A DNA stretch of 64,000 bases. It comes from Candidatus Gastranaerophilales bacterium. GTDB taxonomy: Bacteria; Cyanobacteriota; Vampirovibrionia; Gastranaerophilales; Gastranaerophilaceae. Made by a program: the position numbers and the translations under genes. Position 1 is the stretch's first letter. Each line of letters opens with the position of its first letter. The notes under the pieces were generated by a model. The model worked only from the letters and a program-made list of their open reading frames with translations. It ran no database searches and was not told the DNA's origin. The stretch spans positions 17,291 through 81,290 of the forward strand of contig CALUTJ010000011.1 of the NCBI GenBank assembly GCA_944323685.1, in the 5' to 3' direction. This document shows, in pieces, positions 2,966-38,003 of the stretch.

Positions 2966-3484
2966 TTAATTTTGATTATTTCTTGCAGCTTCTTGTTCTT
3001 CGTATTTTACAAGCATTTCATAAATTTCGGGGTATTTTCTTTTAGCTGTAGTTTTTAAAGGCAGTCTAAAAAACATTCTTTGTCTTTTTATATCAATGCC
3101 CGGGGTTTCAAGTATTTTTTCAACAACGTCTGCCTGACCGTTTTTTACGGCATAAAACAAAGCACTGCCGCCATCTACTGTTTTTATTCTGGGGTCTGCT
3201 CCATTTTCTAAAAGAAGCAGAGCTATTTCATTATTTTTATTGTACACAGCCTGCACAAGATAGGGGGTTCCCATATATCTTTTGTTTAAATCTATTTGCT
3301 TTGCATCGATAAACAATTTTGTTAATTCAATATCTCCGTTAACAACAGCGGTAAATAACATAGCTTGTGAATCAGGTTTTATCCTTTTCGAGTTTAATGT
3401 ATTAATTGCCTCTTGCTGTGTATAAGCGTTAGTCTGAAGCCCTGTGAAAACTAATACGCCCAAAATTACAAGCAGTTTTTTCAT
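2966..3484 (-). CDS. Secreted ankyrin-repeat protein
   Basis: 172 residues with an N-terminal signal peptide (MKKLLVILGVLVFTGLQTNA, probable cleavage after it). About three ankyrin-type helix pairs follow: residues 40-60 (AMLFTAVVNGDIELTKLFID), 73-100 (LVQAVYNKNNEIALLLLENGADP) and 105-135 (ALFYAVKNGQADVVEKIL). Ankyrin repeats bind proteins. It lies 9 bp downstream of the PDZ-like secreted protein and is followed by a terminator, so the pair looks like an accessory (moron) operon between tape measure and tail peptidase. Export predicts a role in the host envelope, such as immunity or superinfection exclusion; this is inference. Confidence 0.7.
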   Translation of the reverse strand: MKKLLVILGVLVFTGLQTNAYTQQEAINTLNSKRIKPDSQAMLFTAVVNGDIELTKLFIDAKQIDLNKRYMGTPYLVQAVYNKNNEIALLLLENGADPRIKTVDGGSALFYAVKNGQADVVEKILETPGIDIKRQRMFFRLPLKTTAKRKYPEIYEMLVKYEEQEAARNNQN

Positions 3485-3493
3485 TTTTTCTCC

Positions 3494-4165
3494 TTATATT
3501 GTCGGTTTTACATAAAAACTTTTTAATTTTATTTCTTTATTAGTTTTTGTTTCACAATCTTTCAGGTTAACAGTTATATGGTTATTGTTTTTTAAAGGCG
3601 TAAGCTTTATTTTTACATCTGTTTTAGACATCCCTTTAACTGGGTGCTTATTTATTTCCGTAATTACATCGCCTACGGATAAATTTTCATTAACTTTGTT
3701 TTCATCGTAATAAACAGCCGTTATTTTGTAGCCTTTTCTTGTTTTCTTGCCGTCAAATCCGTAAGTATAATAGCCTTTTAATGCCTTTTTCAAAACATCA
3801 AGAATCTCTTTTTCCTGAAACTGGTAAGCATATACATTCTGATTATATGCACTTCCGGCATGGTAAGTACTTTTCATACCTAAAGACAGTACAACATCTT
3901 TGTTGTCTTGGACAGCCGAAAACATAAAACGGATTTCGGGATTAGAACCCGCAAAAAATTTAACAAGCAAGCTTGTATTCACATTGTACGCCGTAAAAGA
4001 ATAATCGGAGACATTTTCCAGCGTAGAGCCCTGTTTGACGAGGTACTTCATAATCCTGCTTAAAACATCTTTTTGTTGTGAATTTTCAATAACAATACTG
4101 CTGTTGGCAAATGCCGTTGCAGAAGTTAACACAAAAACAATTAATAAAGCCCAAAACTTCTTCAT
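3494..4165 (-). CDS. Secreted protein with a PDZ-like C-terminal domain
   Basis: 223 residues. The start at 4165 is chosen because GGAG lies 8 bases upstream; a longer in-frame start at 4189 lacks this. The signal peptide runs MKKFWALLIVFVLTSATAFA. The middle is unrecognised. The C-terminus (about residues 160-215) contains NLSVGDVITEINKHPVKGMS, a PDZ-type signature. An AT-rich promoter (TATAAT-like) lies about 40 bases upstream. It is probably co-transcribed with the ankyrin gene. Function is unknown; the context is the same as for other secreted morons in this prophage. Confidence 0.6.
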   Translation of the reverse strand: MKKFWALLIVFVLTSATAFANSSIVIENSQQKDVLSRIMKYLVKQGSTLENVSDYSFTAYNVNTSLLVKFFAGSNPEIRFMFSAVQDNKDVVLSLGMKSTYHAGSAYNQNVYAYQFQEKEILDVLKKALKGYYTYGFDGKKTRKGYKITAVYYDENKVNENLSVGDVITEINKHPVKGMSKTDVKIKLTPLKNNNHITVNLKDCETKTNKEIKLKSFYVKPTI

Positions 4166-4254: not shown

Positions 4255-5232
4255 TTATGCTCCTCTGACCATGTTTCTTAAATTTTTGTTGTTGTATTTT
4301 ATACCTTCAAAGGTAATACTGTTTAACAAATCTTTGTTTTCAAGAAGATATTTTCTTACGTCTTTAGAATCCCACGCCTTAATATTAAAGTTGTTAAACA
4401 CAACAGGTGATGCGCTGCTTTGACCGTTTGATGAATAGTTTGTGTTTTCAGCAGGGCTCAAGATTCTCTCGCCGCCTTTTAACAAAGCAAATTGTTCATT
4501 AGTGCCGGGAATCTCGGCGTTAGCACCCACAGGGACAATGCCTCCGGAATGGAATATACCGAAAGCCCTGCCAATACCTTTAATCAAAGCAGCACCGCTT
4601 CCTTTAAAGCCGCCGCCTTGAGACAAAGTGTTTAAGGAAGAAATGATGCTTTGCATTTTGTTTGTGCTGAAAAGTTTTTGCATTGCAGCCTGCGATGCCT
4701 CCTGAAGTAGAAATACAGTCAAATCTTTTGCCAGATCTTTCATTTCATCACCAAAGTTTTTGTAGTTGTCAATGATACCGGACATGCTGTCTTGAAATAT
4801 TCCTGCTATTTTTTCTCCTCTTTCCATCCACATTTCTTCTTCCGCTTCAAATACTCTTTTATCGTATAGGTTATCCAGTGATAATCTTGCTTCGTTTAAT
4901 TCTGTGGAAGTAAGGCCGGCTTTGTTTTGGTGAAGTTTTTTGAGTTCATCGTAATACCATTTGTCTATGGCAAGACGTTTTTGAGAAATATCTTCGTAAT
5001 CGTCGATGTCTGTAGAAAGTTGTTCTTTTGCTTTTTGCTGCATTTCCATTAATGTTTTATATGGATTTTTTTCTTCCATTTTTTCACTATATGCTTTGCA
5101 TAAGTCTAAAATTTCTTCCAACTCTTTTGACATTCCGTTTAATGGAATACCTAGCTTTTTGTAGATTTCTTGGATTTCATCTATTACATTACTGTTTAGT
5201 TTAAATCCTTGGGTAAAATTTTTTTGACTCAT
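4255..5232 (-). CDS. Short tail tape-measure protein, copy 1
   Basis: 325 residues, very short for a tape measure and closer in size to GTA tape measures. An N-terminal helical part (about 20-175, charged, coiled-coil-like) leads to a C-terminal region typical of tape-measure proteins: LLQEASQAAMQKLF, a Gly-rich stretch, then FHSGGIVPVG, FALLKGGERILSP and VFNNFNIKA. It is almost identical to copy 2 at 34664-35641 except for the first ~20 residues (MSQKNFTQGFKLNSNVIDEIQ here) and a few substitutions. The start has GAAAGG upstream. It sits downstream of three secreted cassette genes and upstream of the secreted PDZ/ankyrin pair and the tail hub. Confidence 0.65.
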   Translation of the reverse strand: MSQKNFTQGFKLNSNVIDEIQEIYKKLGIPLNGMSKELEEILDLCKAYSEKMEEKNPYKTLMEMQQKAKEQLSTDIDDYEDISQKRLAIDKWYYDELKKLHQNKAGLTSTELNEARLSLDNLYDKRVFEAEEEMWMERGEKIAGIFQDSMSGIIDNYKNFGDEMKDLAKDLTVFLLQEASQAAMQKLFSTNKMQSIISSLNTLSQGGGFKGSGAALIKGIGRAFGIFHSGGIVPVGANAEIPGTNEQFALLKGGERILSPAENTNYSSNGQSSASPVVFNNFNIKAWDSKDVRKYLLENKDLLNSITFEGIKYNNKNLRNMVRGA

Positions 5233-5260
5233 TTTTATGTCCTTTCGTTTTTGTATGCCA

Positions 5261-5286
5261 AAAAGACATCTGTTAAGATGTCTTTT
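5261..5286. terminator. Hairpin between cassette gene L1 and tape measure
   Basis: AAAAGACATC-TGTTAA-GATGTCTTTT is a perfect 10-bp stem with a T run on the minus strand. An equivalent hairpin of different sequence follows every cassette gene in both arrays: 6141-6170, 7042-7070, 35678-35701, 36552-36573 and 37415-37449. Position is conserved while sequence is not, so termination or mRNA end protection is probably what is selected. Confidence 0.65.
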
Positions 5287-5310
5287 GTTTTTTCTTCGTT
5301 TTATAATTAA

Positions 5311-5838
5311 TTAATATCTTGTTATTATTACTTTACCATTTTTGTCATACCCCTTATCACCAACCCAGTGATATTTTAGCTCCCCGCTTATAGTGAAAAT
5401 GTAAGTATTTTCAGGTGTAATAAATAGACTCACTTCCTCTAGTTCACCATGTACATTATAACGTAACGTCCTTGTTGGAGTTTGTAGACTATTACGTTTT
5501 TCTACGGTTTCAAGTTGCCCATTACCTTTGTAATAATATACAATATACATATTATTTTTATATGCTAGAGCATACCCGCCGTCTGAATAATGCTCAATAT
5601 ATCTGTCTTTTAGCTCGACTGCACCCAACTTAATAGCTTTTTTGTTTTCTTTGTAATTAGGGTCAGTAAGATTTGCTTTGATTATGGATTGAGGCAGTGT
5701 GTATTCAACATTTGAAAAAGCTTCTTCTCTTGCCTGTTTTACCGTGTATTTTACTTCGCCTTTTAGTGTTTTTGCTTCAATCGGTAAAGCAAACATCATT
5801 ATTGTGATTATCAATATCGGGATTATTTTCTTTTGCAT
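5311..5838 (-). CDS. Secreted cassette protein L1 (constant N-terminus, variable C-terminus)
   Basis: 175 residues, family not recognised by name. Residues 1-22 are a type I signal peptide ending FALPIEA; there is no lipobox Cys. Residues 23-80 are nearly identical in all six paralogues of the window (VKYTVKQAREEAFSNVEY, then SIIKANLTDPNYKEN). The C-terminal ~95 residues are MORN/YD-like beta repeats (GQLETVEKR, GELEEVSLF, GELKYHWVG) and vary between copies. An extended -10 (TGCTATACT, 5845-5853) ends six bases before the ATG and there is no Shine-Dalgarno, so a leaderless mRNA is predicted. It is the copy nearest tape measure 1. Role unknown; superinfection exclusion is one hypothesis. Confidence 0.75.
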   Translation of the reverse strand: MQKKIIPILIITIMMFALPIEAKTLKGEVKYTVKQAREEAFSNVEYTLPQSIIKANLTDPNYKENKKAIKLGAVELKDRYIEHYSDGGYALAYKNNMYIVYYYKGNGQLETVEKRNSLQTPTRTLRYNVHGELEEVSLFITPENTYIFTISGELKYHWVGDKGYDKNGKVIITRY

Positions 5839-5844
5839 TGTTGT

Positions 5845-5853
5845 AGTATAGCA
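5845..5853 (-). promoter_or_regulatory. Extended -10 of cassette gene L1 (leaderless)
   Basis: On the minus strand TGCTATACT is followed by ACAACA and then ATG. A TGACGA element lies 17 bp further upstream as a weak -35. The same arrangement stands before the other five cassette genes, TGCTATAAT in the rightmost copy. The spacing puts the transcription start at or next to the A of ATG. Confidence 0.6.
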
Positions 5854-5934
5854 TAGTTTTTACCTGTTCGTCATTCTTCGCTTACGCTAAGAATCTAAAA
5901 TTATAGATTTTTGTACTACACGCGGTTATTGATA

Positions 5935-5993
5935 AGATTCTGAACACACTCAATTCTCGCTAAATTGCTGCGCATGATGCTTCAGAATGACAG
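5935..5993 (+). repeat. REP-like repeat, family 3, in array L
   Basis: The segment beginning AGATTCTGAACACACTCAAT and ending CTTCAGAATGACAG is an imperfect palindrome. Near-identical copies lie at 6823-6881, 36346-36406 and 37226-37283, always fused to the truncated tape-measure heads. Diverged copies lie inside the autotransporter leaders near 15623-15687 and 62468-62523. It supplies the C-terminal CHSEASCAAI tail of each truncated head. Confidence 0.7.
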
Positions 5994-6112
5994 CATAGCT
6001 CTTTTGACATTCCGTTTAATGGAATACCTAGCTTTTTATAGATTTCTTGAAGTTGTTTAACAATGTCTGTGTCTGCGGTTGTGATACTTTGATTAAAATT
6101 GTTTTTACTCAT
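5960..6112 (-). pseudogene. Truncated tape-measure 5' end in array L (head 1)
   Basis: Fifty codons: a variable start (MSKNNFNQSITTADTDIVKQ) and then the constant tape-measure segment EIYKKLGIPLNGMSKEL. The frame then enters the REP-like repeat and ends as CCHSEASCAAI. A ribosome binding site (GGAAAACC) is present, so a short peptide could be made. Three other heads break at exactly the same point, showing that the array grew by duplication of one unit (cassette gene, hairpin, tape-measure head, repeat). Confidence 0.7.
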
Positions 6113-6198
6113 TTTTGGTTTTCCTTTCTTTTTTACATAAAAAACAGACACCTTTTTAGGTATCTGTTTTTCTATTGACTACTTATTTATTACTTTAA

Positions 6199-6726
6199 TT
6201 AATATCTTACAGAAATTACTTTACCATTTTTATCATATCCTTTATCCCCAATCCAATGGTATTGTAATTCTCCGTTTATATTAAATATGTATGTATTATC
6301 AGGAGTTAGAAATAAACTTATTTCTTCTAAATTACCTTTGATATTGTATCTAAATGACCTCATAGGAGTCTGCAAACTTTCTCTTTTTTCTATAGTATCA
6401 AGTTCACCATTACCTTTGTAATAATAAACAATATACATATTATTTTTATATGCTAGAGCATACCCGCCGTCTGAATAATGCTCAATATATCTGTCTTTTA
6501 GCTCGACTGCACCCAACTTAATAGCTTTTTTGTTTTCTTTGTAATTAGGGTCAGTAAGATTTGCTTTGATTATGGATTGAGGCAGTGTGTATTCAACATT
6601 TGAAAAAGCTTCTTCTCTTGCCTGTTTTACCGTGTATTTTACTTCGCCTTTTAGTGTTTTTGCTTCAATCGGTAAAGCAAACATCATTATTGTGATTATC
6701 AATATCGGGATTATTTTCTTTTGCAT
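6199..6726 (-). CDS. Secreted cassette protein L2
   Basis: 175 residues. Residues 1-110 are essentially identical to L1, including DNA-level identity; the C-terminal part differs by scattered substitutions (GELDTIEKRESLQTP, GELQYHWIG). It belongs to the same C-terminal subfamily as L1 and the array-R copy at 36601. It has a signal peptide, no lipobox, a leaderless extended -10 directly upstream (TGCTATACT) and a downstream hairpin at 6141-6170. The near identity to L1 suggests recent duplication or gene conversion within the array. Confidence 0.75.
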   Translation of the reverse strand: MQKKIIPILIITIMMFALPIEAKTLKGEVKYTVKQAREEAFSNVEYTLPQSIIKANLTDPNYKENKKAIKLGAVELKDRYIEHYSDGGYALAYKNNMYIVYYYKGNGELDTIEKRESLQTPMRSFRYNIKGNLEEISLFLTPDNTYIFNINGELQYHWIGDKGYDKNGKVISVRY

Positions 6727-6846
6727 TGTTGTAGTATAGCATAGTTTTTACCTGTTCGTCATTCTTCGCTTACGCTAAGAATCTAAAATTATAGATTTTG
6801 TACTACACACGGTTATTGATAAGATTCTGAACACACTCAATTCTCG

Positions 6847-7005
6847 CTAAATTGCTGCGCATGATGCTTCAGAATGACAGTACAGCTCTTTTGACATTCC
6901 GTTTAATGGAATACCAAGCTTTTTATAGATTTCTTGAAGTTGTTTAACAATGTCTGTGTCTGCGGTTGTGATACCATAATTTTGTGTTTTGTTGTATTAT
7001 GCCAT
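6847..7005 (-). pseudogene. Truncated tape-measure 5' end in array L (head 2)
   Basis: An ATG with AGGAGG upstream opens a frame that meets TAA at codon 3 (ATG GCA TAA). The same frame then reads NYGITTADTDIVKQLQ and EIYKKLGIPLNGMSKEL before ending in the repeat-derived CHSEASCAAI. The head resembles the start of tape-measure copy 2. The early stop makes translation from this ATG impossible; it is a decayed duplicate or a silent donor. Confidence 0.7.
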
Positions 7006-7088
7006 TTTTTCCTCCTTTATTAATTAAATTTAAAGCACACAAAAATAAGCACTTGATAAGTGCTTATTTTATTATCTTATTTGGAATT

Positions 7089-7616
7089 TTAATCTCTGGT
7101 TAAAACTAAATTACCATTAATATCATAACAATTATTATTTACCCAATGGGATACAAGTTTGCCGTCAGGTCTGAAATTATATGTATTGTTTTCATCCACA
7201 ATCAAAGACACAGTGGTAAGTTCATTATACTGATTATAGATACAAGTAATTACAGGATAAATAAGACGATTTCTTTTTCCAATACTTATTAATTTTCCTT
7301 TAGATGAATAATAATATTCAAAATAAAAATTATTTTTATATATTATCCCATATTTTCCATCAGAAAATACTGTAATATATCTATCCTTTAACTCCGTAGC
7401 ACCTAACTTTATAGCTTTTTTATTCTCTTTATAATTAGGGTCAGTAAAATTCGCTTTGATTATTGATTGCGGCAAAGAGTGTTCAACATTTGAAAAGGCC
7501 TCTTCTCTTGCCTGTTTTACCGTATATTTTACTTCGCCTTTTAGGTTTTTTGCTTCAATCGGTAAAGCAAACATCATTATTGAGATTATCAATATCGGGA
7601 TTATTTCCTTTTGCAT
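7089..7616 (-). CDS. Secreted cassette protein L3
   Basis: 175 residues from the ATG at 7616. A 12-codon upstream extension is rejected because the extended -10 (TGCTATACT) lies inside it. The signal peptide and constant N-terminus are as in the other cassette proteins, with small changes (NLKGEVKYTV, EHSLPQSII). The C-terminal half belongs to a second subfamily (FYFEYYYSSKGKLISIGKR, LVSHWVNNNCYD) shared with the copies at 35724 and 37473. First gene of array L, directly after the tail assembly chaperones and a perfect 17-bp hairpin. Confidence 0.75.
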   Translation of the reverse strand: MQKEIIPILIISIMMFALPIEAKNLKGEVKYTVKQAREEAFSNVEHSLPQSIIKANFTDPNYKENKKAIKLGATELKDRYITVFSDGKYGIIYKNNFYFEYYYSSKGKLISIGKRNRLIYPVITCIYNQYNELTTVSLIVDENNTYNFRPDGKLVSHWVNNNCYDINGNLVLTRD

Positions 7617-8825: not shown

Positions 8826-8900
8826 GTTTTTCTCCTCTTGTTGCGCTAAGTATATATCTTATCTTCGGGCTTAATACCCCAAACGGGCACAACTGTCCCC

Positions 8901-8989
8901 GTTTTTTGTAAATTGTGCTTACAACTTTTTGCAAACAGTTTACATTTATAGTTATAACATATTTTTTGTACCCGTTCGGGTACAATTTT
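8901..8989. promoter_or_regulatory. 89-bp operator-like repeat, copy A
   Basis: Identical over 89 bp to 38138-38226, with a shared TCTATTGACAA nearby. It contains the inverted repeat TTGTACCCG-TT-CGGGTACAA (8966-8985) and, on the minus strand, an extended -10-like TGTTATAAC. Copy A stands upstream of the Cys-rich/chaperone/array L/tape-measure genes; copy B stands upstream of array R/tape measure 2. Best read as a shared promoter-operator of the two tail operon segments; a recombination site is the alternative. Confidence 0.5.
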
Positions 8990-9014: not shown

Positions 9015-10310
9015 TTACAGGATTATTTTTTTAGCGTAATTAGTCTCGTAAAAATTAAGCGCATAGCGGGTTTCGTCCATCGTGTCATCGTTTTCTTTTA
9101 ACGGAGTATCTAAATCAACAAATTTTTCGTTTCTTTCGTCTTCGTTTGGGTAACGATACAGCCCGAACTCTCTTAATGTGTTTTTACAGCGGTCTTTATT
9201 AACAATTAATCTGTCATAGTTGATGATGGCTCGCATAATTCCTATGCTGTCGACTATTTTGGGCTTTTTTTCGTGAACTATTATACCGTTTAGCGCCTGT
9301 CTCAGTTTGTGGTTTTGTTCGGGACGGGCGTTGTCACAGTTAATAAAACGAAAATATCTTTGATACTCCAGCTGTTTATCTAAAATCCATTTTATAACCC
9401 GTTCTTCGGAAATTTTAGAGCCGTAAAGCTCGTCTATTTTGTAATAGGTATAATCCCTTGTGACTCCGTACAAACCGCAGGACAACGGATGAATCCAACC
9501 CCAGTCCAGTCCGAGAAAGTATTCAAAAAATTCGTTTTTGTTGATTTTTTCCACTACCTGTTTGTGAGAGCAGGTATGTTTGTCAAAATTGAAGGTATCA
9601 TACACAAGCCCCTGTGCAACTACCCACAGCCCTTTGATTTTTCTTGCTTCAAAAACACCGTGGTAAAGTTTTTTCTGGTTTTCGATAAAGGCTTTAGAGA
9701 GGTTTGCGTTATCCTCCATTGTAAAGTGCCAGTAGTCAAAAATGCTTTTTATATTCGCATCACCGTCAAGAAATGGTTTTATCCGTTCCCGATAAAGCCA
9801 GTGATTTGCGCTTTCGGGGTTGCTGTCGGCAATTGCCCTTGCATTTTGCGGTGTAAGCCTTGACAAAGCCATATTATAAAAGGAATAGTGGTGCTTTGGC
9901 AGCTCGTTTGCATACCAGAAATCCCATGTTGCACCCTGAATATTTGAGTCGCTGTCAGATTTTCCGCCGCCGACAACAAGGCAGTTATAAAGCTTGCCCC
10001 ACAGTTCTATATCCAGCTCTCCGCTTGAGGAATTATATTTTACCTTTGCCCCGTGATAATTTTTTAAATACGGCAAAAGCTCAACCAGTACGTTATTGCG
10101 CACTGTGTTTTTTGAGTAACCGGAAAAAACTTTGAGGTATTCGTTGCCGACAAAGTCAAAAATCTGAGGGATTTTATAAATAATAGAAAGTGTTTTTGCA
10201 GAACGTACAGCACCGTCACATAATGTAAAAAACGCCATATCTTCGGGCTTTTTGCTTAAGAACAGGCGGTGTTTTCTGCTGTATTTTGATTTAGTCCAAT
10301 CTATCGGCAT
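9015..10310 (-). CDS. Terminase large subunit
   Basis: 431 residues, PBSX-type terminase size. The N-terminal ATPase has an atypical Walker A (DGAVRSAKTLS, Ala in place of the common Gly) and a downstream GATWDFWYANELPK segment at the Walker B/coupling position. The C-terminal nuclease begins YFLGLDWGWIHP, giving the first conserved Asp. It packages DNA into the prohead. It overlaps the small-subunit gene by 20 bp. In this prophage it sits after the tail tube and autotransporter instead of before the portal, which points to rearrangement. Confidence 0.85.
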   Translation of the reverse strand: MPIDWTKSKYSRKHRLFLSKKPEDMAFFTLCDGAVRSAKTLSIIYKIPQIFDFVGNEYLKVFSGYSKNTVRNNVLVELLPYLKNYHGAKVKYNSSSGELDIELWGKLYNCLVVGGGKSDSDSNIQGATWDFWYANELPKHHYSFYNMALSRLTPQNARAIADSNPESANHWLYRERIKPFLDGDANIKSIFDYWHFTMEDNANLSKAFIENQKKLYHGVFEARKIKGLWVVAQGLVYDTFNFDKHTCSHKQVVEKINKNEFFEYFLGLDWGWIHPLSCGLYGVTRDYTYYKIDELYGSKISEERVIKWILDKQLEYQRYFRFINCDNARPEQNHKLRQALNGIIVHEKKPKIVDSIGIMRAIINYDRLIVNKDRCKNTLREFGLYRYPNEDERNEKFVDLDTPLKENDDTMDETRYALNFYETNYAKKIIL

Positions 10311-18741: not shown

Positions 18742-19692
18742 CTAAGTTGATGATTTAGGCGTCAAAACAGCAAACGGATAACGGTTTGTTCCGCCTTTTC
18801 TGTTTACAGGTGAAGCAACCTGAACACCCAATCTCATTACGCAGCGCAGCGCAAGCATATCCTGCTGGGCGAGGTTGTAAGCGATTGTACCGTCTGTATT
18901 TTGAATTATTGCCTGATCAAGAACCTTGTATGTAATATCCTGACGTATTGAATAAACAGCCTTTGTAAAATCACCGGCAACAAGCAAAGCTTTTGTGCTG
19001 TCAAAGATACCTGTTTCGTCATACATCATAGGTCTACCAACAAGGCTGACAGGCATTTCGGACGTCAAGCCCGGTGTATAAAGCAGCTGGTTATTTTTAT
19101 CTCTGAGGTTTCTGAATTTTGCCTCTAAAGTGCTGTCAGCATAGAAACCTGTAACTTTATAACCTGCTGCCTCAACTTTTGCCATAACCCCGTTTTCTCC
19201 GATTATGTCACCGGCAATGTCTTCATTTGTACCGATTTCGACTTTATTGTTTTTGGCAATAGCCTGTGTAACAATAGCTTCCGGATAAGAAGACGGTTTG
19301 TTAACGCCGAAGAACACTGCCTCGTCAATAGCAACGCCGAACGCCTCAACTATTTGAGGTTTGATTTCGTCCCACATAGAGTATTGTGCATCATCAAAAA
19401 CAGCCTCGGGGATAGGTACGATTACGGCGATTTCTTCTGCTGTAAGGGTTAATTTATCCCATTCGGCATTTGTTGTCTTTTTCATATCCGTGTCACCGTT
19501 TAAGAAGTAAGCTGTCGGCAAAGTTGAGGCAATCGGCAAAGTTTTTTGTTTTGCGCTCATGTTAGGCAGCTGTTTAAACAACTGCAAAGCTGCAGAAGCT
19601 TTAGGAACTTCCTTAATAATTTCTGTTGATGTTTCTACCGGAATCAAGGCTTCTGCGTTTGTACGTGCAATAAGTTTAGCATCTAATGTCAT
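18742..19692 (-). CDS. Major capsid protein, HK97 fold
   Basis: 316 residues. The N-terminal arm (EIIKEVPKASAALQLFKQLP), the spine region (WDKLTLTAEEIAVIVPIPEA) and the P-domain-like C-terminus (ALRCVMRLGVQVASPVNRKG) follow the pattern of HK97-type capsid proteins of the Phage_capsid family. It is preceded by a coiled-coil scaffold gene and followed by connectors, the normal head-gene order. No maturation protease is seen, consistent with a separate scaffold. Confidence 0.8.
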   Translation of the reverse strand: MTLDAKLIARTNAEALIPVETSTEIIKEVPKASAALQLFKQLPNMSAKQKTLPIASTLPTAYFLNGDTDMKKTTNAEWDKLTLTAEEIAVIVPIPEAVFDDAQYSMWDEIKPQIVEAFGVAIDEAVFFGVNKPSSYPEAIVTQAIAKNNKVEIGTNEDIAGDIIGENGVMAKVEAAGYKVTGFYADSTLEAKFRNLRDKNNQLLYTPGLTSEMPVSLVGRPMMYDETGIFDSTKALLVAGDFTKAVYSIRQDITYKVLDQAIIQNTDGTIAYNLAQQDMLALRCVMRLGVQVASPVNRKGGTNRYPFAVLTPKSST

Positions 19693-30350: not shown

Positions 30351-31199
30351 TTAATCCGGTCTTGTCCTGTAATAACTTTTTACCTGTACACCGTCAGAAC
30401 GGGTATAACCGTTTACAAATACCATGCCGGAGGCTTTTGCCTGTTTGTTTGTCGGAATACCTATAGTCTGTCTTTGATAATCAATAGCAGATTTATTTTG
30501 CTGTAACTCAGTTTCAGTCATACTTTCTACATCTTCTCTGGTATAAATTTTGTTTGAATTTGTTACCTCATTTATATAACCGCTATAATCCTTGCTTTCG
30601 TCAAAATCAACTTTACCTCGAGTTCCATTTAAAGGTTTGTTAAAAACATTTTTTGTAACAGTAGCTTTTAAAACCGTTGTATTCAAATTGCTACTGCTTT
30701 TTATTGCATTTATAGGATTGAAGTTAGAACTTTTTTTACTTTTATCTTTAATATGAGAAGCAATATACTCTGCATCAATATCAGCAGTACTTTTATCTTT
30801 TGTATTTTTAACCCATTCTTCAGAAACTTTTTGTATAGTTTTTTCGGATGCAAATTTTATAATTTTATTACATGTTGTTCTCCCTAAAAAAGTTCCTGTA
30901 ATACCGCCAATAAAAGAACCTGTGCCAACACCGGCAATGTTTGCAGAAAGTCCGCCTATAGTTGCTCCTACTTCTGTACCGACTAAACGACCGGCCATCA
31001 TACATTCTTCAGCAGTTGCTGCTTCCATACTTTCCCTAATAACTGCACTTACCCCAAGTTCAAAATAAATCATGTTCTGTGCTTGTTCAGGGGAGTAGCC
31101 TTTTTGTATAAGTTTTGTATAACGTTTTTCTATATATTCTTTACTCGATTTGGAATGATTTTTAATCTTATTTCCGTATTTATATATTTTTTTTAACAT
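30351..31199 (-). CDS. SPEQAQ-type effector with glycine-zipper segment and GYTRxDG C-terminus
   Basis: 282 residues from the ATG at 31199 (AAAGGAG 5 bases upstream); longer starts run into a terminator hairpin. N-terminal helical domain with KGYSPEQAQNMIYFELGVSA. Then a glycine-rich hydrophobic stretch (TEVGATIGGLSANIAGVGTG) like membrane-inserting glycine zippers. The C-terminus (about 215-282) has YTREDVESMTETELQQN, GIPTNKQAKASG and GYTRSDGVQVKSYYR, a tag seen at the end of many phage-associated proteins. It could be a virion effector or ejection protein. A small membrane protein follows, as in toxin-immunity pairs. Function inferred. Confidence 0.5.
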   Translation of the reverse strand: MLKKIYKYGNKIKNHSKSSKEYIEKRYTKLIQKGYSPEQAQNMIYFELGVSAVIRESMEAATAEECMMAGRLVGTEVGATIGGLSANIAGVGTGSFIGGITGTFLGRTTCNKIIKFASEKTIQKVSEEWVKNTKDKSTADIDAEYIASHIKDKSKKSSNFNPINAIKSSSNLNTTVLKATVTKNVFNKPLNGTRGKVDFDESKDYSGYINEVTNSNKIYTREDVESMTETELQQNKSAIDYQRQTIGIPTNKQAKASGMVFVNGYTRSDGVQVKSYYRTRPD

Positions 31200-31210
31200 T
31201 ATGCTCCTTT

Positions 31211-31245
31211 CAAAAAGGGACACATTTTTTAATGTGCCCCCTTTT
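31211..31245 (-). terminator. Terminator between 31270 gene and the effector
   Basis: GGGGGCACATT...AATGTGTCCC stem followed on the minus strand by TTTTT, 25 bp after the membrane gene stop. Confidence 0.6.
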
Positions 31246-31269
31246 CTTTTATTCATACACTTTTTACAA

Positions 31270-31566
31270 TTAATCATTAAAATACTTTTGTGTAATATAA
31301 AAATATAAAAGAAAAGCCAGTCCTATAACAAAACATAACAAGAACTCTTTCCAAAAGGAGAGTTTGTCTTCATTTTTCTCAGGTATAATATCCAGCAGGG
31401 ATACAGAAGGATTTATGTGAAACACCTTATCTAAAAGCCAACTTAATATAATATCAATAACTAAAAGTATTTTCCAACCGGAAACAGACTCATAAAATTT
31501 TTGAATTTTTAAAGGAGTTCCTTGTTTTATTTGTTTTTTGACCGCATTCTTTAGATTCTTGTCCAT
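31270..31566 (-). CDS. Small two-helix membrane protein (MDKNLKNAV family), copy 1
   Basis: 98 residues, starting MDKNLKNAVKKQIKQGTPLK, with hydrophobic segments at about 30-48 and 75-95. Promoter TGCTAAAAT ends 6-7 bases before ATG. It lies between the portal stop and the effector at 31199, bounded by its own promoter and terminator, a typical moron. Paralogous to 30032 mainly in the N-terminus and promoter. Confidence 0.55.
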   Translation of the reverse strand: MDKNLKNAVKKQIKQGTPLKIQKFYESVSGWKILLVIDIILSWLLDKVFHINPSVSLLDIIPEKNEDKLSFWKEFLLCFVIGLAFLLYFYITQKYFND

Positions 31567-31594: not shown

Positions 31595-33076
31595 TTAATT
31601 TAATATATTGGCATTTTGTTCCGTGATTGTAGAATTTTGCACAGATTGTTCTTTTTCGTTTGTGATATTCTTATTTTCCTCACGCATAGCCTCTAACGCC
31701 TCTTTTAAAGTCATTTTACTCTGCTCTTTAGCTTTTTCTTCTTCAATCCTTTTCAGCTCTTCTCTTGCATCGTCTTCTGATACATTATCAAGCGTCATGA
31801 TTGTTGTAAGCTTGCTTTGCGTTCCTGATGTAACCCTGCTTGTCTCTGTTGTAACAAGTTCGGAATAATCGGCGGGAATAGGCTCGCCCCAGGCAACGTT
31901 TACCTGCTCAACCGGTGTTGAATTAAATGCCATTGCACACTGCACAACGCTTTGGATTGTAGAAGTAAAAGATACCTGTTTTATGTCATCAACTTTAGAC
32001 AGCGCAGCAATAAAAATCTTGCGCAGACTTTCTCCTGACATGTTTCCGGCAATATCCAGCCCGTAAGCCTGCGGGGGAGTCTTTGTCATAATATAAAAGT
32101 AATTCATCAACGTGTTGAGATGTTTTTGTATTGCATCAGCCTGCAGGTCTGCTGTTATATATTCAGGTTTAATCCCGTCTGTACCTACTTTTAAAAAGTC
32201 TGTTTCAGGGAAAAATCTTTCATTTGTAACAGGATTCATCTCAAGGTTTTGTTCGCTGCCGGATAACTTCGGGTTTGCGTGGCGGTTAATTATTTTAGAA
32301 TTCTGGCTTACGGTAAGCATAATTTCTTCGACAATGGATTTGCAGCGTTTGTAATCGCTTTCGCCAAAATAAGAATCACTCTCTGTAGTGTTTTTGGTCG
32401 GAAAAACAATAAAATCTTTCCACAGGTGTGAAAAGTCTTCCACCTCGCTTACTCCGAAATCTTTCATTTCATCAGGATTAAGCTTGCGTCCTATTACTCC
32501 GTTTGAAGCCTCGTATATTTCGTTTTCCATATAACCTTTGTGGTGTTTTTCAACTTTTTTGTACTGTTTTTTTACTCCGTTTTCAAGAATTTCCAGCGGA
32601 TAAATAAGAATATGTCCTGAGATATCGTTTAAATTTCCCTGATTAAAAACAGGTATCCAGCAATCGGGTGAAACAGAAAATACCTTAACGTTGCCGTTAT
32701 CAAGCGCAACTTTAAACAACCCGCTGCCGAAACGTGAATTGTCTATGTAAACTTCTTTAAGCACGGAAATAAAGTTGTTTTGTTTTGCTATTTCGTCCCA
32801 AACAGCCTGTTTAGCATCATCAACATTTATGTTGATACCCTGATTTGTCAAAAATCCTTTAAAAAAGTCTGTCAAAGCCCAGAATAAATTGACATTAATC
32901 AACGACTGGGCAGTTGTGTTGTCTAAGGGGTAGCGTTTTCTGATTTTTAAAATTGTAGAACTGAAGGCGTTTGTAAAATCACCTTCATATAATTTTCTGT
33001 AGTAATCGTACTTTGATAATCTTTCGATTGTGTCGGAATCGTATTTTAAATTAACAATATCAAAATTAGTAAACAT
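31595..33076 (-). CDS. Portal protein
   Basis: 493 residues, the size of siphophage/GTA portal proteins. Features: YDYYRKLYEGDF at the N-terminus, VFSVSPDCWIPVFNQG in the core, TKTPPQAYGLDIAGNMSGESLRKIFIAALSK in the region of the stem helix and tunnel loop (only parts quoted contiguous), and a charged C-terminus rich in Glu and Lys (DDAREELKRIEEEKAKEQSK). It forms the dodecameric DNA channel of the capsid. The next head gene, MuF, lies 8.5 kb downstream here because the accessory zone intervenes. Confidence 0.8.
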   Translation of the reverse strand: MFTNFDIVNLKYDSDTIERLSKYDYYRKLYEGDFTNAFSSTILKIRKRYPLDNTTAQSLINVNLFWALTDFFKGFLTNQGININVDDAKQAVWDEIAKQNNFISVLKEVYIDNSRFGSGLFKVALDNGNVKVFSVSPDCWIPVFNQGNLNDISGHILIYPLEILENGVKKQYKKVEKHHKGYMENEIYEASNGVIGRKLNPDEMKDFGVSEVEDFSHLWKDFIVFPTKNTTESDSYFGESDYKRCKSIVEEIMLTVSQNSKIINRHANPKLSGSEQNLEMNPVTNERFFPETDFLKVGTDGIKPEYITADLQADAIQKHLNTLMNYFYIMTKTPPQAYGLDIAGNMSGESLRKIFIAALSKVDDIKQVSFTSTIQSVVQCAMAFNSTPVEQVNVAWGEPIPADYSELVTTETSRVTSGTQSKLTTIMTLDNVSEDDAREELKRIEEEKAKEQSKMTLKEALEAMREENKNITNEKEQSVQNSTITEQNANILN

Positions 33077-33311: not shown

Positions 33312-34643
33312 TTAAATTTTAATAACCAGTTCGTTAAACATTTGAGGAAACCCTCTAAAATTGCCGTGATTATTAAGCTCTTTACAACGCTCAAAAGTTC
33401 TGTCGCATTTTGTTTCTTCACCGGCATAGCCGCAGCGGCAGTCTTTAAAACGGCGTACCTGACAGGTTGTACGGTATTTCATTGCAGGTGCCTGAATTTC
33501 ATATCCGCCGAGAGAAGTTTCTATATCCATTTTTGCGGTTTCGTAATCAAGCTTTAAGTTGTTGCACCGTCCGGCATATAACACCTGTTTTTTGTCAGAA
33601 AGCAAAGTATTTGTGTTCACATCAAGAAAAACAAGGGTCAAAACAGCAGGAGCATTGGTGATAACATCTCCTCTCTGCCCGATTATGCCGGAAATTGCAA
33701 GCCCGACATTTGAAAGCTCCACCTGTAGCTTAGAAACACTGGAGCTGTCGTCTTTTTTTATTGTGTCAAAACTCAATGGCGCGCCTATGTAGTCTTCACC
33801 GTTATAGCGCAATGTATCAAGAGTTTCATTGTCGAGAATATAAATAGACCCGCCTTCAAGCTCTATTTTTAAGAGTTTTCTGGGGATAATTTCATCACGT
33901 TCTTCGTAATAAACAGGCGCACTGTTAGGAAAAACCTCTTTTAACTTTACCTTTATTTGTCCGTAGCCGTAAGAATCAATATCTGTATTTAATGTGTCAC
34001 TGTCAAAGCGTACTGTATAAGTTTTGTCATCACCTCCGTACTGTTTTTTCCATGTCCATTCAAAAGAGCGGAAACGCCCTCTTTTGGCAATAAAAAAATC
34101 TTCGAGTTTTTTTCTTGTTGATGCATTTTTTTGAAAAGTTAGTGTCCAGCTTCTTTTAGGTGTGTCCCAGTAAGATTTTCTCTCGTTTCTTGCTGTAAAA
34201 ATTTTGTCAACTATAGTATAAAACTCTGTGATAAAGTCACATTCCGTATTATGACAAAAATCCAATTCCTCAACCTGCTGAACTTTAGAATCATCAATAC
34301 AAACAAGCTCGAGCTGAAAATCGCTGTAGCCAAAATCTTTTATGCTCTGCTGAAAAGAATCGGAGTTAAAAGTGCAAAGATAAGTCTTGTCATTGCCGCC
34401 TTTAGCAGCCTCCCATGTAAAATAAAATTTACCTGCCTGCCCCATAACCTCTACAAAAAAATCCTCCAGCTTTTGACGTTGTTTAAATGATTTATCAAAA
34501 TTGAGTTTGAATGTTCTTTTAGGGTAAGTCCATACAGGATAACGCTGTTCACGCCCTTTCATTTTTTCGTTAATCTGAGTGTTAAATTCAATTGAGCTTT
34601 GATAAGACTCCTGATAATTAAAATCAAATACCGGATATTCCAT
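33312..34643 (-). CDS. Distal tail / hub protein: tandem DUF2460-like domains fused to a minor-tail C-terminus
   Basis: 443 residues. Two homologous N-terminal domains: the first has YPKRTFKLNFDKSFKQRQKL with EDFF, the second TPKRSWTLTFQKNASTRKKL with EDFF; both end with a GYG/DFGY motif (FGYSDFQLEL, YGYGQIKVKL). These resemble distal tail proteins (DUF2460 class). The C-terminal ~180 residues carry CQVRRFKDCRCGYAG, a cysteine cluster and HGNFRGFPQM, as in phage_BR0599/lambda L-type proteins that bind an iron-sulfur cluster. In GTAs these are two genes. It lies directly after tape-measure copy 2. Confidence 0.65.
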   Translation of the reverse strand: MEYPVFDFNYQESYQSSIEFNTQINEKMKGREQRYPVWTYPKRTFKLNFDKSFKQRQKLEDFFVEVMGQAGKFYFTWEAAKGGNDKTYLCTFNSDSFQQSIKDFGYSDFQLELVCIDDSKVQQVEELDFCHNTECDFITEFYTIVDKIFTARNERKSYWDTPKRSWTLTFQKNASTRKKLEDFFIAKRGRFRSFEWTWKKQYGGDDKTYTVRFDSDTLNTDIDSYGYGQIKVKLKEVFPNSAPVYYEERDEIIPRKLLKIELEGGSIYILDNETLDTLRYNGEDYIGAPLSFDTIKKDDSSSVSKLQVELSNVGLAISGIIGQRGDVITNAPAVLTLVFLDVNTNTLLSDKKQVLYAGRCNNLKLDYETAKMDIETSLGGYEIQAPAMKYRTTCQVRRFKDCRCGYAGEETKCDRTFERCKELNNHGNFRGFPQMFNELVIKI

Positions 34644-34663: not shown

Positions 34664-35641
34664 TTATGCTCCTCTGACCATGTTTCTTAAATTTTTGTTG
34701 TTGTATTTTATACCCTCAAAGGTAATACTGTTTAACAAATCTTTGTTTTCAAGAAGATATTTTCTTACGTCTTTAGAATCCCACGCCTTAATATTAAAGT
34801 TGTTAAACACAACAGGTGAGGCGCTGCTTTGACCGTTTGATGAATAGTTTGTGTTTTCAGCAGGGCTCAAGATTCTCTCGCCGCCTTTTAATAAAGCAAA
34901 TTGTTCATTAGTGCCGGGAATCTCAGCGTTAGCCCCCACCGGGACAATGCCTCCGGAATGGAATATACCGAAAGCCCTGCCAATACCTTTAATCAAAGCA
35001 GCCCCGTTACCTTTAAAGCCTCCGCCTTGAGACAAAGTGTTTAAGGAAGAAATGATGCCTTTCATTTTGTTAGTGCTGAAAAGTTTTTGCATAGCAGCCT
35101 GAGAAGCCTCCTGAAGAAGAAACGCGGTTAAATCTTTAGCCAGGTCTTTCATTTCATCGCCAAAGTTTTTGTAGTTGTCAATGATACCTGACATGCTGTC
35201 TTGAAATATTCCTGCTATTTTTTCTCCTCTTTCCATCCACATTTCTTCTTCCGCTTCAAATACTCTTTTATCGTATAGGTTATCCAGTGATAATCTTGCT
35301 TCGTTTAATTCTGTGGAAGTAAGGCCGGCTTTGTTTTGGTGAAGTTTTTTGAGTTCATCGTAATACCATTTGTCTATGGCAAGACGTTTTTGAGAAATAT
35401 CTTCGTAATCGTCGATGTCTGTAGAAAGTTGTTCTTTTGCTTTTTGCTGCATTTCCATTAATGTTTTATATGGATTTTTTTCTTCCATTTTTTCACTATA
35501 TGCTTTGCATAAGTCTAAAATTTCTTCCAACTCTTTTGACATTCCGTTTAATGGAATTCCAAGCTTTTTGTAGATTTCTTGAAGTTGTTTAACAATGTCT
35601 GTGTCTGCGGTTGTGATACCATAATTTGTTTTTTGTGTCAT
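34664..35641 (-). CDS. Short tail tape-measure protein, copy 2
   Basis: 325 residues, nearly identical to copy 1 (4255-5232) from residue 23 onward; differences include TAFLLQ for TVFLLQ and KMKGIIS for KMQSIIS. The N-terminus MTQKTNYGITTADTDIVKQL differs from copy 1 and matches truncated head 2 of array L. The downstream gene is the distal tail protein, the normal neighbour of a tape measure, so this copy has the more canonical context. The C-terminal stop context (GCTCCTCTGACCATG on the plus strand) is shared with copy 1. Confidence 0.65.
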   Translation of the reverse strand: MTQKTNYGITTADTDIVKQLQEIYKKLGIPLNGMSKELEEILDLCKAYSEKMEEKNPYKTLMEMQQKAKEQLSTDIDDYEDISQKRLAIDKWYYDELKKLHQNKAGLTSTELNEARLSLDNLYDKRVFEAEEEMWMERGEKIAGIFQDSMSGIIDNYKNFGDEMKDLAKDLTAFLLQEASQAAMQKLFSTNKMKGIISSLNTLSQGGGFKGNGAALIKGIGRAFGIFHSGGIVPVGANAEIPGTNEQFALLKGGERILSPAENTNYSSNGQSSASPVVFNNFNIKAWDSKDVRKYLLENKDLLNSITFEGIKYNNKNLRNMVRGA

Positions 35642-35723
35642 TTCATACCTACTTTCTTTGATTTAATTAATACAAATAAAGATATCCATACGGATATCTT
35701 TAAATAGTTTTTTATAAATTTCT

Positions 35724-36254
35724 TTAATTCAATTCTTCAGGTAATGGATTCCCATTGCTATCATAGCCTTGATTTCCTAGCCATTTTGCTAGAAATTTTC
35801 CATTAGCACTAAAAATATAACAAATATCTTGTGAAATATAAAAATTGACTTCTTCAAGTTTACCAGATACATTATATTTATAACTTTGTGTTGGGTAGAC
35901 TAAACCTGTTCTTTTTCCAATTAAATTTAATTTTCCTTGAGAGTTATAGTAATATTCATAATATAAATTATTTTTATATATTATTGTATAATCTCCATTA
36001 GCATATAGTGTTATATGTCTGTCGTTTAAATCCACGTTATTGTATTTTATCGCTTTTTGATTTTCTTTGTAATTAGGGTCAGTAAGATTTGCTTTGATTA
36101 TTGATTGAGGCAGTGTGTATTCAACATTTGAAAAGGCTTCTTCTCTTGCTTGTTTTACCGTGTATTTTACTTCGCCTTTTAATGTTTTTGCTTCAATCGG
36201 TAAAGCAAACATCATTATTGTGATTATCAATATCGGGATTATTTTCTTCAGCAT
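35724..36254 (-). CDS. Secreted cassette protein R1
   Basis: 176 residues, start MLKKIIPILIITIMMFALPI (one change from the MQKK form). The constant N-terminus runs to about residue 67 (NYKENQKAIK), then the sequence becomes variable (YNNVDLNDRHITLYANGDYT). C-terminal subfamily as in L3 and R3 (YYEYYYNSQGKLNLIGKR, FLAKWLGNQGYD). Leaderless extended -10 present. Nearest cassette to tape measure 2. Confidence 0.75.
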   Translation of the reverse strand: MLKKIIPILIITIMMFALPIEAKTLKGEVKYTVKQAREEAFSNVEYTLPQSIIKANLTDPNYKENQKAIKYNNVDLNDRHITLYANGDYTIIYKNNLYYEYYYNSQGKLNLIGKRTGLVYPTQSYKYNVSGKLEEVNFYISQDICYIFSANGKFLAKWLGNQGYDSNGNPLPEELN

Positions 36255-36374
36255 TGTTGTAGTATAGCATAGTTTTTACCTGTTCGTCATTCTTAGCGTA
36301 AGCGAAGAATCTAAAATTATAGATTTTGTACTACACGCGGTTATTAATAAGATTCTGAACACGCTCAATTCTCG

Positions 36375-36521
36375 CTAAATTGCTGCGCATGATGCTTCAG
36401 AATGACAGCATAGCTCTTTTGACATTCCGTTTAATGGAATACCAAGCTTTTTATAGATTTCACGGATTTGGTCGATTACCGGACTGTTAAAATTTACTGT
36501 TTGATTAAATTGATTGCTCAT
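36375..36521 (-). pseudogene. Truncated tape-measure 5' end in array R (head 1)
   Basis: 48 codons with AAAGGAG upstream: variable start MSNQFNQTVNFNSPVIDQIR, constant EIYKKLGIPLNGMSKEL, then repeat-derived CCHSEASCAAI and stop. The SPVIDQIR type of head occurs only in array R in this window. Confidence 0.7.
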
Positions 36522-36600
36522 TTTGTCTCCTTTCTTTTTAAATAAGCAAAATAGACACCTTTTTAGGTGTCTACAATAATTTATATAAATATTCTTGATA

Positions 36601-37128
36601 TTAAGATCTTGTTACAATTATTTTACCGTACTTATCGTAGCCGTTTTTCCCTATCCAATGACATTTAAGGTTTCCATTTATATCAAAAACATATGAGTTT
36701 TCATCTGTAATAAATAAACTTATTTCTTTTAAATTTCCTTGTGTGTTATATCGCATTGTTTTCATTGGCGGGGTTAAACTCTCCCATATTTCTATTACAT
36801 CCAAGTGACCATCTCGTTTATAATAGTATACATTATATAAGTTTGTTTTATATGCTATTGCATAGCCACCATCTGAAAAATGTTGAATATATCTATCCTT
36901 TAACTCCGTAGCACCTAACTTTATAGCTTTTTTATTCTCTTTGTAATTAGGGTCAGTAAGATTTGCTTTGATGATGGATTGAGGCAGCGTGTATTCAACA
37001 TTTGAAAAAGCTTCTTCTCTTGCCTGTTTTACCGTGTATTTTACTTCGCCTTTTAGTGTTTTTGCTTCAATCGGTAAAGCAAACATCATTATTGTGATTA
37101 TCAATATCGGGATTATTTTCTTTTGCAT
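36601..37128 (-). CDS. Secreted cassette protein R2
   Basis: 175 residues, signal peptide and constant N-terminus identical to L1/L2 to about residue 70 (KKAIKLGATELKDRYI). The C-terminal half is of the L1/L2 subfamily (NLYNVYYYKRDGHLDVIEIW, NLKCHWIGKNGYDKYGK) but clearly diverged. It has a leaderless extended -10 (TGCTATACT) and a downstream hairpin at 36552-36573. Confidence 0.75.
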   Translation of the reverse strand: MQKKIIPILIITIMMFALPIEAKTLKGEVKYTVKQAREEAFSNVEYTLPQSIIKANLTDPNYKENKKAIKLGATELKDRYIQHFSDGGYAIAYKTNLYNVYYYKRDGHLDVIEIWESLTPPMKTMRYNTQGNLKEISLFITDENSYVFDINGNLKCHWIGKNGYDKYGKIIVTRS

Positions 37129-37248
37129 TGTTGTAGTATAGCATAGTTTTTACCTGTTCGTCATTCTTCGCTTACGCTAAGAATCTAAAATTATAGATTT
37201 TGTACTACACACGGTTATTGATAAGATTCTGAACACACTCAATTCTCG

Positions 37249-37395
37249 CTAAATTGCTGCGCATGATGCTTCAGAATGACAGTACAACTCTTTTGACATT
37301 CCGTTTAATGGAATACCAAGCTTTTTGTAGATTTCACGGATTTGATCGATTACCGGACTATCAGTTAGATTTAGTCCTTGGTTTGATGGTTTCAT
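37249..37395 (-). pseudogene. Truncated tape-measure 5' end in array R (head 2)
   Basis: 48 codons: MKPSNQGLNLTDSPVIDQIR, then EIYKKLGIPLNGMSKEL and the repeat-derived YCHSEASCAAI. The ribosome binding site (GGAAA) is weak. Same breakpoint as the other three heads. Confidence 0.7.
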
Positions 37396-37472: not shown

Positions 37473-38003
37473 TTATTGATAAACTTGATTTATAAATTGC
37501 CCATTCACATCATAACATTTATCATTCACCCAATAATACATGAATTGTCCATCGGCTTTAAATTGAAATGCTTGATATCTACTTACATATAACATTAATT
37601 CTGTTAATTGATTTTGAGTATTATAAAAATAACTTACAACAGGATATGTAAGACTGTTTCTTTTACCAATACCTTCTAATTTTCCGTTCGAAAAATAATT
37701 ATATTCATAATATAAATTATCTTTGTAAATTATAATATAATGCCCATCATCTGCATATGTAATATATCTATCCTTTAACTCCGTAGCCCCCAACTTAATG
37801 GCTTTTTGATTTTCTTTGTAATTAGGGTCAGTAAGATTTGCTTTGATGATGGATTGAGGCAGCGTGTATTCAACATTTGCGAAAGCCTCTTCTCTTGCCT
37901 GTTTTACAGTGTATTTAACTCCGCCTTTTAGTGTTTTTGCGCCCGCAGGGTAAGCAAAAAATAACGAGGTTATAATTATTATCGATATTATCAGCTTTTG
38001 CAT
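37473..38003 (-). CDS. Secreted cassette protein R3 (outermost)
   Basis: 176 residues. The signal peptide differs most from the others (MQKLIISIIIITSLFFAYPA), while the constant block VKYTVKQAREEAFANVEYTL is kept. The C-terminal half belongs to the L3/R1 subfamily (LYYEYNYFSNGKLEGIGKR, FMYYWVNDKCYD). A consensus extended -10 (TGCTATAAT, 38010-38018) stands seven bases before the ATG. As the outermost and most diverged copy it may be the oldest array member. Confidence 0.75.
   Translation of the reverse strand: MQKLIISIIIITSLFFAYPAGAKTLKGGVKYTVKQAREEAFANVEYTLPQSIIKANLTDPNYKENQKAIKLGATELKDRYITYADDGHYIIIYKDNLYYEYNYFSNGKLEGIGKRNSLTYPVVSYFYNTQNQLTELMLYVSRYQAFQFKADGQFMYYWVNDKCYDVNGQFINQVYQ

Follow-up and report, generated by a model that had tools for sequence, protein, structure and literature searches.

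Recombining units of a tape-measure tip and a secreted-protein gene form a candidate exclusion bank in a Gastranaerophilales particle cluster

The 64,000-nucleotide stretch analyzed here (the window) covers bases 17291-81290 of the 81290-base contig C11 in a 2.3-Mb genome of a Candidatus Gastranaerophilales bacterium. Among the tail genes of a phage-like cluster, it carries arrays of genes for predicted secreted proteins (here called cassettes), combined with complete and truncated copies of a predicted gene for a tape-measure protein (TMP). We found that the unit stored in these arrays is a cassette plus a TMP tip, and that these units have been diversified by recombination. From sequence comparison, we hypothesized that each array may be a polymorphic two-part bank, whose secreted proteins would act in exclusion of, or immunity against, particles with a matching tape measure. 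This is a tentative reading, to which we give somewhat less than an even chance.

Array L (4255-7616) consists of three 175-aa secreted-type cassettes, two orphan TMP heads, and one full TMP, all on the minus strand, with a regular unit spacing of 888 and 890 nt. Its features are as follows, with genomes cited by G numbers and a repetitive extragenic palindromic (REP)-like block between units:

4255..5232, minus strand: full-length tape-measure-like gene, TMP L, 325 aa, type A, live copy; weak match to the phrog_339 tape measure (E 1.2e-6)
5197..5232, minus strand: unit-specific TMP L tip, codons 1-12, MSQKNFTQGFKL; the nearest tip is that of G004_32b, likewise for its cassette C-terminus
5119..5196, minus strand: TMP constant block, codons 13-38, ending MSKEL, common to live and orphan heads by sequence comparison
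5258..5292, minus strand: hairpin after cassette L1 (-11.7 kcal/mol, z -4.3)
5311..5838, minus strand: cassette L1, 175 aa, predicted signal peptide; codons 1-103 constant, codons 104-175 variable
5839..6000, minus strand: REP-like block and leaderless promoter of L1 (TATACT, 5850-5845)
5996..6112, minus strand: orphan TMP head (MSKNNFNQSITT...MSKEL) after cassette L2; in G021_b, this tip continues into a TMP body
6125..6165, minus strand: hairpin after cassette L2 (-9.6 kcal/mol, z -3.2; the folded stretch may clip the 5' end of the stem)
6199..6726, minus strand: cassette L2
6883..7005, minus strand: orphan TMP head after cassette L3, interrupted by a stop at codon 3; G011_b has the tip beyond this stop in a live TMP
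7042..7070, minus strand: terminator-like hairpin after cassette L3 (terminator scan and folding)
7089..7616, minus strand: cassette L3, first of array L

A preliminary description of this DNA had given each of three units in array L a leaderless promoter, a signal-peptide protein, a hairpin, a TMP 5' end, and a REP-like repeat. The array is real at that place and its cassettes, hairpins, and leaderless promoters stand, but there is no orphan head beside the full TMP and no REP-like block upstream of the first unit, where a different palindrome is found. The heads had been said to break after MSKEL and continue as CHSEASCAAI, and both orphan heads indeed read ...NGMSKEL followed by (Y/C)CHSEASCAAI. 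No Pfam domain was found in TMP L. The TATACT -10 box ends 6 nt 5' of the ATG in L1, L2, and L3, and the hairpins that follow these cassettes have z scores of -3.2 to -6.1, with one of the three called on the right strand by the terminator scan. Only at the four array junctions does the 162-nt REP-like block reach (nearly) its full length, while a ~60-nt part of it is dispersed, with 18 matches genome-wide, of which 13 lie outside the arrays. We rejected this block as the cause of diversity since it was not seen after the G004 and G011 heads (in stretches ending 260 nt past the cassette).

A second, paralogous array, R (34664-38003), adds to that picture. It has the same anatomy, with 81.6% identity to array L over 3440 nt, and its three secreted-type cassettes are accompanied by two orphan TMP heads and a full TMP, after which come the DUF2460 tail gene and the portal gene:

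34664..35641, minus strand: full TMP of array R, type A; 97% nucleotide identity to TMP L from codon 21 on
35724..36254, minus strand: cassette R1; C-terminal synonymous divergence (dS) of 0.02 to G021_a
36411..36521, minus strand: orphan TMP head after cassette R2
36601..37128, minus strand: cassette R2
37285..37395, minus strand: orphan TMP head after cassette R3
37473..38003, minus strand: cassette R3, first of array R

The cassette-TMP unit was found in two mirror layouts across 23 genomes of the genus: type A, with cassettes co-directional with the TMP, and type B, with cassettes divergent from it and likewise accompanied by truncated TMP heads. Both window arrays are of type A, and the window itself holds no type B array. 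In each array, a single tip continues into a full TMP, while the other units have an intact cassette and a head cut short. Arrays hold 1-8 cassettes, which are lower bounds since many contigs end inside arrays; unit order and number are provisional for the same reason, the assemblies being drafts.

To either side of a sharp boundary, the units differ in how far they have diverged. Cassettes had been described as constant at the N-terminus and variable at the C-terminus, and this is borne out by L1 and L2, where mismatch is 34% inside a segment starting at aligned column ~355 and 0.8% outside it (permutation 0/100). We observed a sharp mismatch jump inside the unit in all 8 window pairs tested, of 15 possible, with 100 shuffles each. 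Cassette dS is 0.02 for codons 31-103 and 2.0 for codons 104-175. Purifying selection alone was rejected as the source of the N-terminal constancy because dS is ~0 for codons 1-30 among L1, L2, and R2. We then compared 16 type A units from 5 of the 23 genomes, counting how often a segment's nearest neighbour lay in its own genome (n=15, as the single-unit genome G010 served as a partner and was uncounted). This was so for 9.6/15 upstream of the cassette, 11/15 for cassette codons 1-30, 8/15 for codons 31-103, and 9.5/15 for TMP codons 13-37. The corresponding values were 0/15 for cassette codons 104-175, 2/15 for the spacer, and 3/15 for the tip.

In type B, the homogenized end is the TMP block, with within-genome distances of 0.07-0.08 in groups 1 and 2 and 0.18 in G003, while the cassette 3' end is less homogenized (0.13-0.29) and the remaining cassette and the tip are variable. 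Heads had to contain the shared block to be used, which left 17/17 in group 1, 8/8 in group 2, and 6/8 in G003. Own-genome nearest neighbours in group 1 amounted to 11.8/16 for the TMP block and 1.0-4.3/16 for cassette segments before the 3' end; group 2, with two genomes, hardly agrees (7.0/8 for the TMP block versus 4.0-6.0/8 for cassette segments). Since homogenized ends flank a variable remainder, the core in both layouts is the TMP tip and the adjoining part of the cassette.

Unit cores reappear in other species at other array positions. In the comparison of related genomes, set beforehand as the place where recombinational diversification could fail, cassette number varies, C-terminal cores are swapped, and breakpoints are present, which upholds the claim of the preliminary description. 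We consider it very improbable that the mosaic units are products of assembly chimerism in repeat-rich contigs. Draft contigs that end inside arrays and a near-identical ~350-column stretch in L1 and L2 would favor such errors, but the same cores (C-terminus, hairpin, and tip) were found in separate assemblies of other species.

C-terminal dS between orthologues is 0.02 for R1, 0.43-0.50 for L1, L2 (twice), and L3, 0.79 for R3, and 1.62 for R2 (twice). Since the R1 value is far below that of Maf (0.78), R1 was exchanged after the G000/G021 split. Reference dS for the other pairs reaches 0.89 for Maf (G010) and 1.8-2.1 for portal, with lower references of 0.48 and 0.53 for the P60-like and TAC-like genes of G004 (neighboring tail-region genes named below) and 0.61 for a capsid piece of G010. 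We therefore claim recent exchange for R1 alone. Part of slot 2, the second of the two sites that hold a TMP module, has also been exchanged between the G000 and G021 lineages (terS, terL, g8340, and TAC; dS 0.10-0.19).

The variable tip and the variable cassette C-terminus go together. In type A, tip and cassette C-terminus are correlated (r 0.83; 0/5000 within-genome permutations), and the best cross-genome partner by cassette C-terminus is also the best by TMP tip in 15/16 units, while cassette codons 1-30 show no pairing with the tip (r 0.08). The earlier impression that cassette and head type do not strictly co-vary finds no support here, and we rejected independent shuffling of heads and cassettes on the strength of this agreement. 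Pairing is equally strong in B group 1 (r 0.82; 0/5000) and weak in group 2 (199/5000). Every window unit has a partner elsewhere, and for 5/6 a live head in one of the two genomes corresponds to an orphan head in the other. The L1 and R1 heads are live in the window and orphan in G004 and G021, respectively, while the L2, L3, and R3 heads are orphan in the window and joined to a TMP body in G021, G011, and G004 (the G021 body matches aa 1-283 only). The R2 head is orphan both in the window and in its partner genome. Together, these findings show that the stored unit is a cassette plus a TMP tip.

The link between cassettes and TMPs extends beyond the window. Cassettes lie within 1.5 kb of 27 of the 29 TMPs longer than 200 aa in the genus loci that we fetched, the other two TMPs starting at contig starts. 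Among the linked TMPs, 15 are type A, with every neighbor co-directional, and 12 are type B; the G020 type B TMP additionally has one co-directional cassette. TMPs of the two types are 14-20% identical over aa 1-150 and 68-82% identical over aa 226-325. Either slot takes A or B modules, with A/A in the window genome, B/A in G003, and A/B in G012 and G015 (slot 1 of G012 being split over two contigs). In a tree made by a quick method from 86 of 89 cassettes (fragments under 110 aa were dropped), the 44 co-directional cassettes group together as a single clade (SH-aLRT 96; one change versus a shuffled mean of 29), while type B cassettes do not. Alongside 34/39 B cassettes, we found a divergent Shine-Dalgarno-like site and a start codon reading at least 20 aa; by our count, 12 of these 34 divergent TMP starts are live TMPs and the rest are truncated heads.

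In genera g19 and g33, cassettes stand beside a TMP in 3 of 11 stretches (two from G040, one from G084) and also in L185 and L186; of the remaining stretches, 6 have cassettes without a TMP match and 2 have a TMP match without a clear neighboring cassette. Truncated head-like open reading frames (ORFs) with differing tips are visible in these genera, and in a g33 array 2 of the 5 spacers examined hold no head-like ORF. Two single loci stood out in the genus. In G021, a type A TMP head fragment with a stop adjoins a type B module (L058:8227-8364) and is likely a relic of module replacement, and the G010 TMP (L056:8337-9257) appears frameshifted between tip and body, which may be real or a sequencing error.

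Cassettes carry their own expression signals, a -10 box and a hairpin, present in the sequence as signals independent of the late genes. A leaderless -10 box ending 3-10 nt before the start codon was found in 71/80 cassettes (37/41 A, 34/39 B; three A cassettes without a usable start were excluded), at exactly 6 nt in 59 of these 71, and at least two misses (L3 and G021_b) are due to an upstream methionine chosen by our script. A Shine-Dalgarno-like motif occurs in 0/80 cassettes. On the other hand, 26 control genes showed the leaderless -10 box in 4 and the Shine-Dalgarno-like motif in 12 cases. A hairpin follows each of the six window cassettes. The N-terminus resembles a signal peptide by inspection, and no lipobox cysteine was seen in the six window cassettes. 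A structure model (mean predicted local distance difference test score 89.9) has helices at residues 33-70 and a beta meander at 79-175 that holds the variable part.

Between orthologues, the ratio of nonsynonymous to synonymous divergence (dN/dS) of the C-terminus is 0.05-0.14 (7 of 8 window-unit pairs with enough changes), which indicates that cassettes are under purifying selection. This weakens the idea that the cassette-TMP junction was simply duplicated in tandem and that neutral drift and gene conversion did the rest, the diversity itself having no selected function. Such a history would explain the regular unit spacing, two identical cassette rows within the G003 array, and the decay of heads (the stop in the L3 head). 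Nearly all copies are nevertheless intact ORFs with promoters, and cores but not flanks are common to several species, so that we regard it as quite unlikely.

Profile and database searches gave the cassettes no well-fitting curated family, and no known exclusion protein was among their matches in Pfam, PHROGs, PADLOC, and PDB sequences (NCBIfam was not searched). A known defense family was rejected as well, PADLOC returning nothing relevant for three cassettes apart from one weak Type I specificity match (E 0.017). A cassette profile matches 141/191 genomes of the taxonomic family, while the capsid occurs in 33/191 (7/41 genera). Among genomes with at least four cassette matches, 14/15 have the capsid (Fisher P 2e-11, uncorrected for relatedness), G070 being the exception, and 19 of the 33 capsid-bearing genomes carry fewer than four matches. 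Two members of the cassette family are chromosomal (L073:7973-8638 and L074:8031-8609), and their neighbors, named by eye, are a predicted flippase with OmpH/Skp- and TolC-like genes and a ribosomal-L20-like/BirA-like pair.

This distribution bears on a different explanation, by which the cassettes would be cargo ('moron') genes with an unrelated envelope function, placed at a tolerated site before the TMP and diversified for other reasons (surface variation, host or phage pressure), with the heads as recombination relics. Its appeal lies in members of the family in capsid-less genomes, once beside envelope-type genes, in the cassettes' own promoters and hairpins, and in physical linkage as an explanation of the tip pairing. 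We find it rather doubtful, since in both layouts, both slots, and three genera it is the TMP start that serves as the site, larger copy numbers track the capsid, and the N-terminal class of the TMP is linked with the cassette clade.

We favor superinfection exclusion, the role hypothesized in the preliminary description, because the anatomy resembles orphan toxin-immunity arrays, tape measures are known targets of exclusion and defense, and the structural arrangement of a known TMP fits ours (all three are compared below). This reading is plausible and indirectly supported by the cassettes' own promoters, the TMP link in both layouts, and retained cassettes under purifying selection. Three points weigh against it: family members occur in genomes without a capsid, physical linkage alone could explain the tip-cassette pairing, and the variable tip is short (~10-12 aa). 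As a mechanism, recombination in the constant blocks would load a new tip and cassette next to the TMP body, while older cassettes would remain expressed via their leaderless promoters. The cassette proteins would reside in the periplasm, where they would bind the N-terminal part of an incoming tape measure once it is expelled and thereby stop DNA injection. The array might thus record tape-measure types encountered earlier. The opposite role is unlikely in our view, namely that cassettes are periplasmic docking proteins that let in DNA solely when the particle's tape measure matches (kin-selective uptake). Linkage, polymorphism, and promoters would apply equally to such permissive partners, and the many retained variants fit protection at least as well.

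The cluster that surrounds the arrays is conserved in the genus. Its main other features in the window are:

18742..19692, minus strand: major capsid protein (PF05065, 100.5 bits)
9015..10310, minus strand: terminase large subunit (database search match)
31595..33076, minus strand: portal protein (PF05133)
33312..34643, minus strand: DUF2460 tail protein, after TMP R (PF09343, 58.1 bits, above cut-off)
8888..8989, minus strand: block upstream of g8340, with 96% identity to the one at 38124-38226, which lies upstream of array R

The capsid is present in 22/23 genus genomes, the sole exception being 85% complete, with 86-100% identity to the best match in each other capsid-bearing genome, and its closest relatives among named contigs are mostly Candidatus Gastranaerophilales metagenome-assembled genomes. 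A tape-measure match was likewise found in 22/23 (fragments only in G007, G014, and G016). An IMG/VR contig, L084, has a 92% identical capsid plus one cassette and one TMP. A DUF308 gene adjoins slot 1 in 13/23 genomes, the window genome included; the remaining contigs end earlier or covered a shorter stretch. Tyrosine integrases (PF00589) gave 7 matches in the genome and none on contig C11, and serine recombinases were not searched for. PF09343, a tail family of the gene transfer agent (GTA) type, scored above cut-off, and PF09356 and PF11836 scored below it. J, terL, capsid, and portal have dN/dS of 0.01-0.07 (near relatives, finite dS only), which rules out a decaying prophage remnant, and the TMP and cassettes are more diverged than capsid, terminase, portal, and J. 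Gene content and conservation suggest that the cluster is probably a domesticated, GTA-like particle, though it may belong to an active virus.

On the 3' side of TMP L are a minor-tail-like gene (phrog_329, E 3e-4), which we call P60-like from its position, and a J-like gene. On the 5' side are two small genes, g10.1 and TAC (working labels; TAC has weak tail matches), then g8340 and the terminase. Ankyrin and PDZ proteins with signal-like N-termini are encoded at 2966-4165, between the TMP and the P60-like gene, a pair found again only in G004 and G019 among 40 loci mapped. Between the capsid and terminase parts lies a 1601-aa ORF (10958-15763), autotransporter-like by eye, which has repeat-rich sequence in common with the locus at ~62449-64000. 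The head-gene region contains duplications of 99-100% identity (21413-22027/28509-29123 and 23564-24189/29122-29747). A protein at 30351-31277 has a weak TraT match (PF05818, 19.4 bits, below the cut-off of 31), and parts of its C-terminal portion turn up in a number of cluster genes in related genomes; TraT itself functions in surface exclusion.

The injection specificity of tailed particles is poorly understood. It is conceivable, if rather unlikely as a whole, that the cluster is a domesticated particle with a tape-measure-based self/non-self system, in which two slots take interchangeable A or B modules, each a tape measure with a swappable N-terminal tip and a growing bank of cognate secreted proteins that decide on injection. 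Such a system would be without precedent as a polymorphic recognition array based on a tape-measure protein. Immunity arrays are known for toxins; our literature search (titles and abstract openings) gave none for tape measures and nothing on point for a Gastranaerophilales cluster. If the exclusion reading is true, the arrays provide a natural panel of matched and mismatched TMP-secreted protein pairs for asking what envelope proteins recognize in an incoming tape measure. The findings also suggest that this gut lineage, a relative of the cyanobacteria, has a conserved particle and that its species have units in common and rearrange them.

Several known systems offer comparisons. With Rhodobacter-type GTAs, the cluster has in common a chromosomal tail and capsid cluster in nearly all relatives of the genus, a contig free of tyrosine integrase, and a DUF2460-type tail gene; it differs in being split and in having two TMP modules. 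Ltp of phage TP-J34 is described as acting on the TMP (PMC3952083), and HK97 gp15 and TP-J34 are discussed as cases of tape measure and injection (PMC10883804). These are prophage-encoded envelope proteins tied to the tape measure and DNA injection, as the cassettes would be. However, Ltp is given as a single lipoprotein gene in a lysogeny module (PMC3952083), whereas here arrays at the TMP start encode predicted secreted beta-meander proteins with no lipobox seen, and we saw no sequence match between cassettes and Ltp or HK97 gp15. SNIPE is reported to bind TMPs through a diversified interface, a defense at genome injection that recognizes tape-measure types (PMC13190303); it is described as a membrane-bound nuclease, whereas cassettes gave no nuclease match. 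The JBD30 TMP is reported to extend with its C-terminus into the core of the baseplate, with a proposal that expulsion of the remainder creates a channel (PMC11445458), an arrangement that fits the conserved C-terminus and variable N-terminus of the TMP here. A close anatomical parallel is with contact-dependent inhibition (CDI) and Rhs systems, where a constant block likewise marks off orphan fragments, every fragment comes with a partner gene, and modules that are orphan in some strains are live in others. In Escherichia coli EC93, the orphan immunity protein is reported to be made and the orphan toxin fragment apparently not (PMC3150448). Here, unlike in CDI/Rhs, the constant block lies within the TMP gene, the variable part is the extreme N-terminus without a toxin domain, the partner gene has a promoter of its own and encodes a predicted secreted protein, and there are two mirror layouts. 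By analogy, the array would work like the orphan toxin-immunity arrays of CDI/Rhs, built on a tape measure instead.

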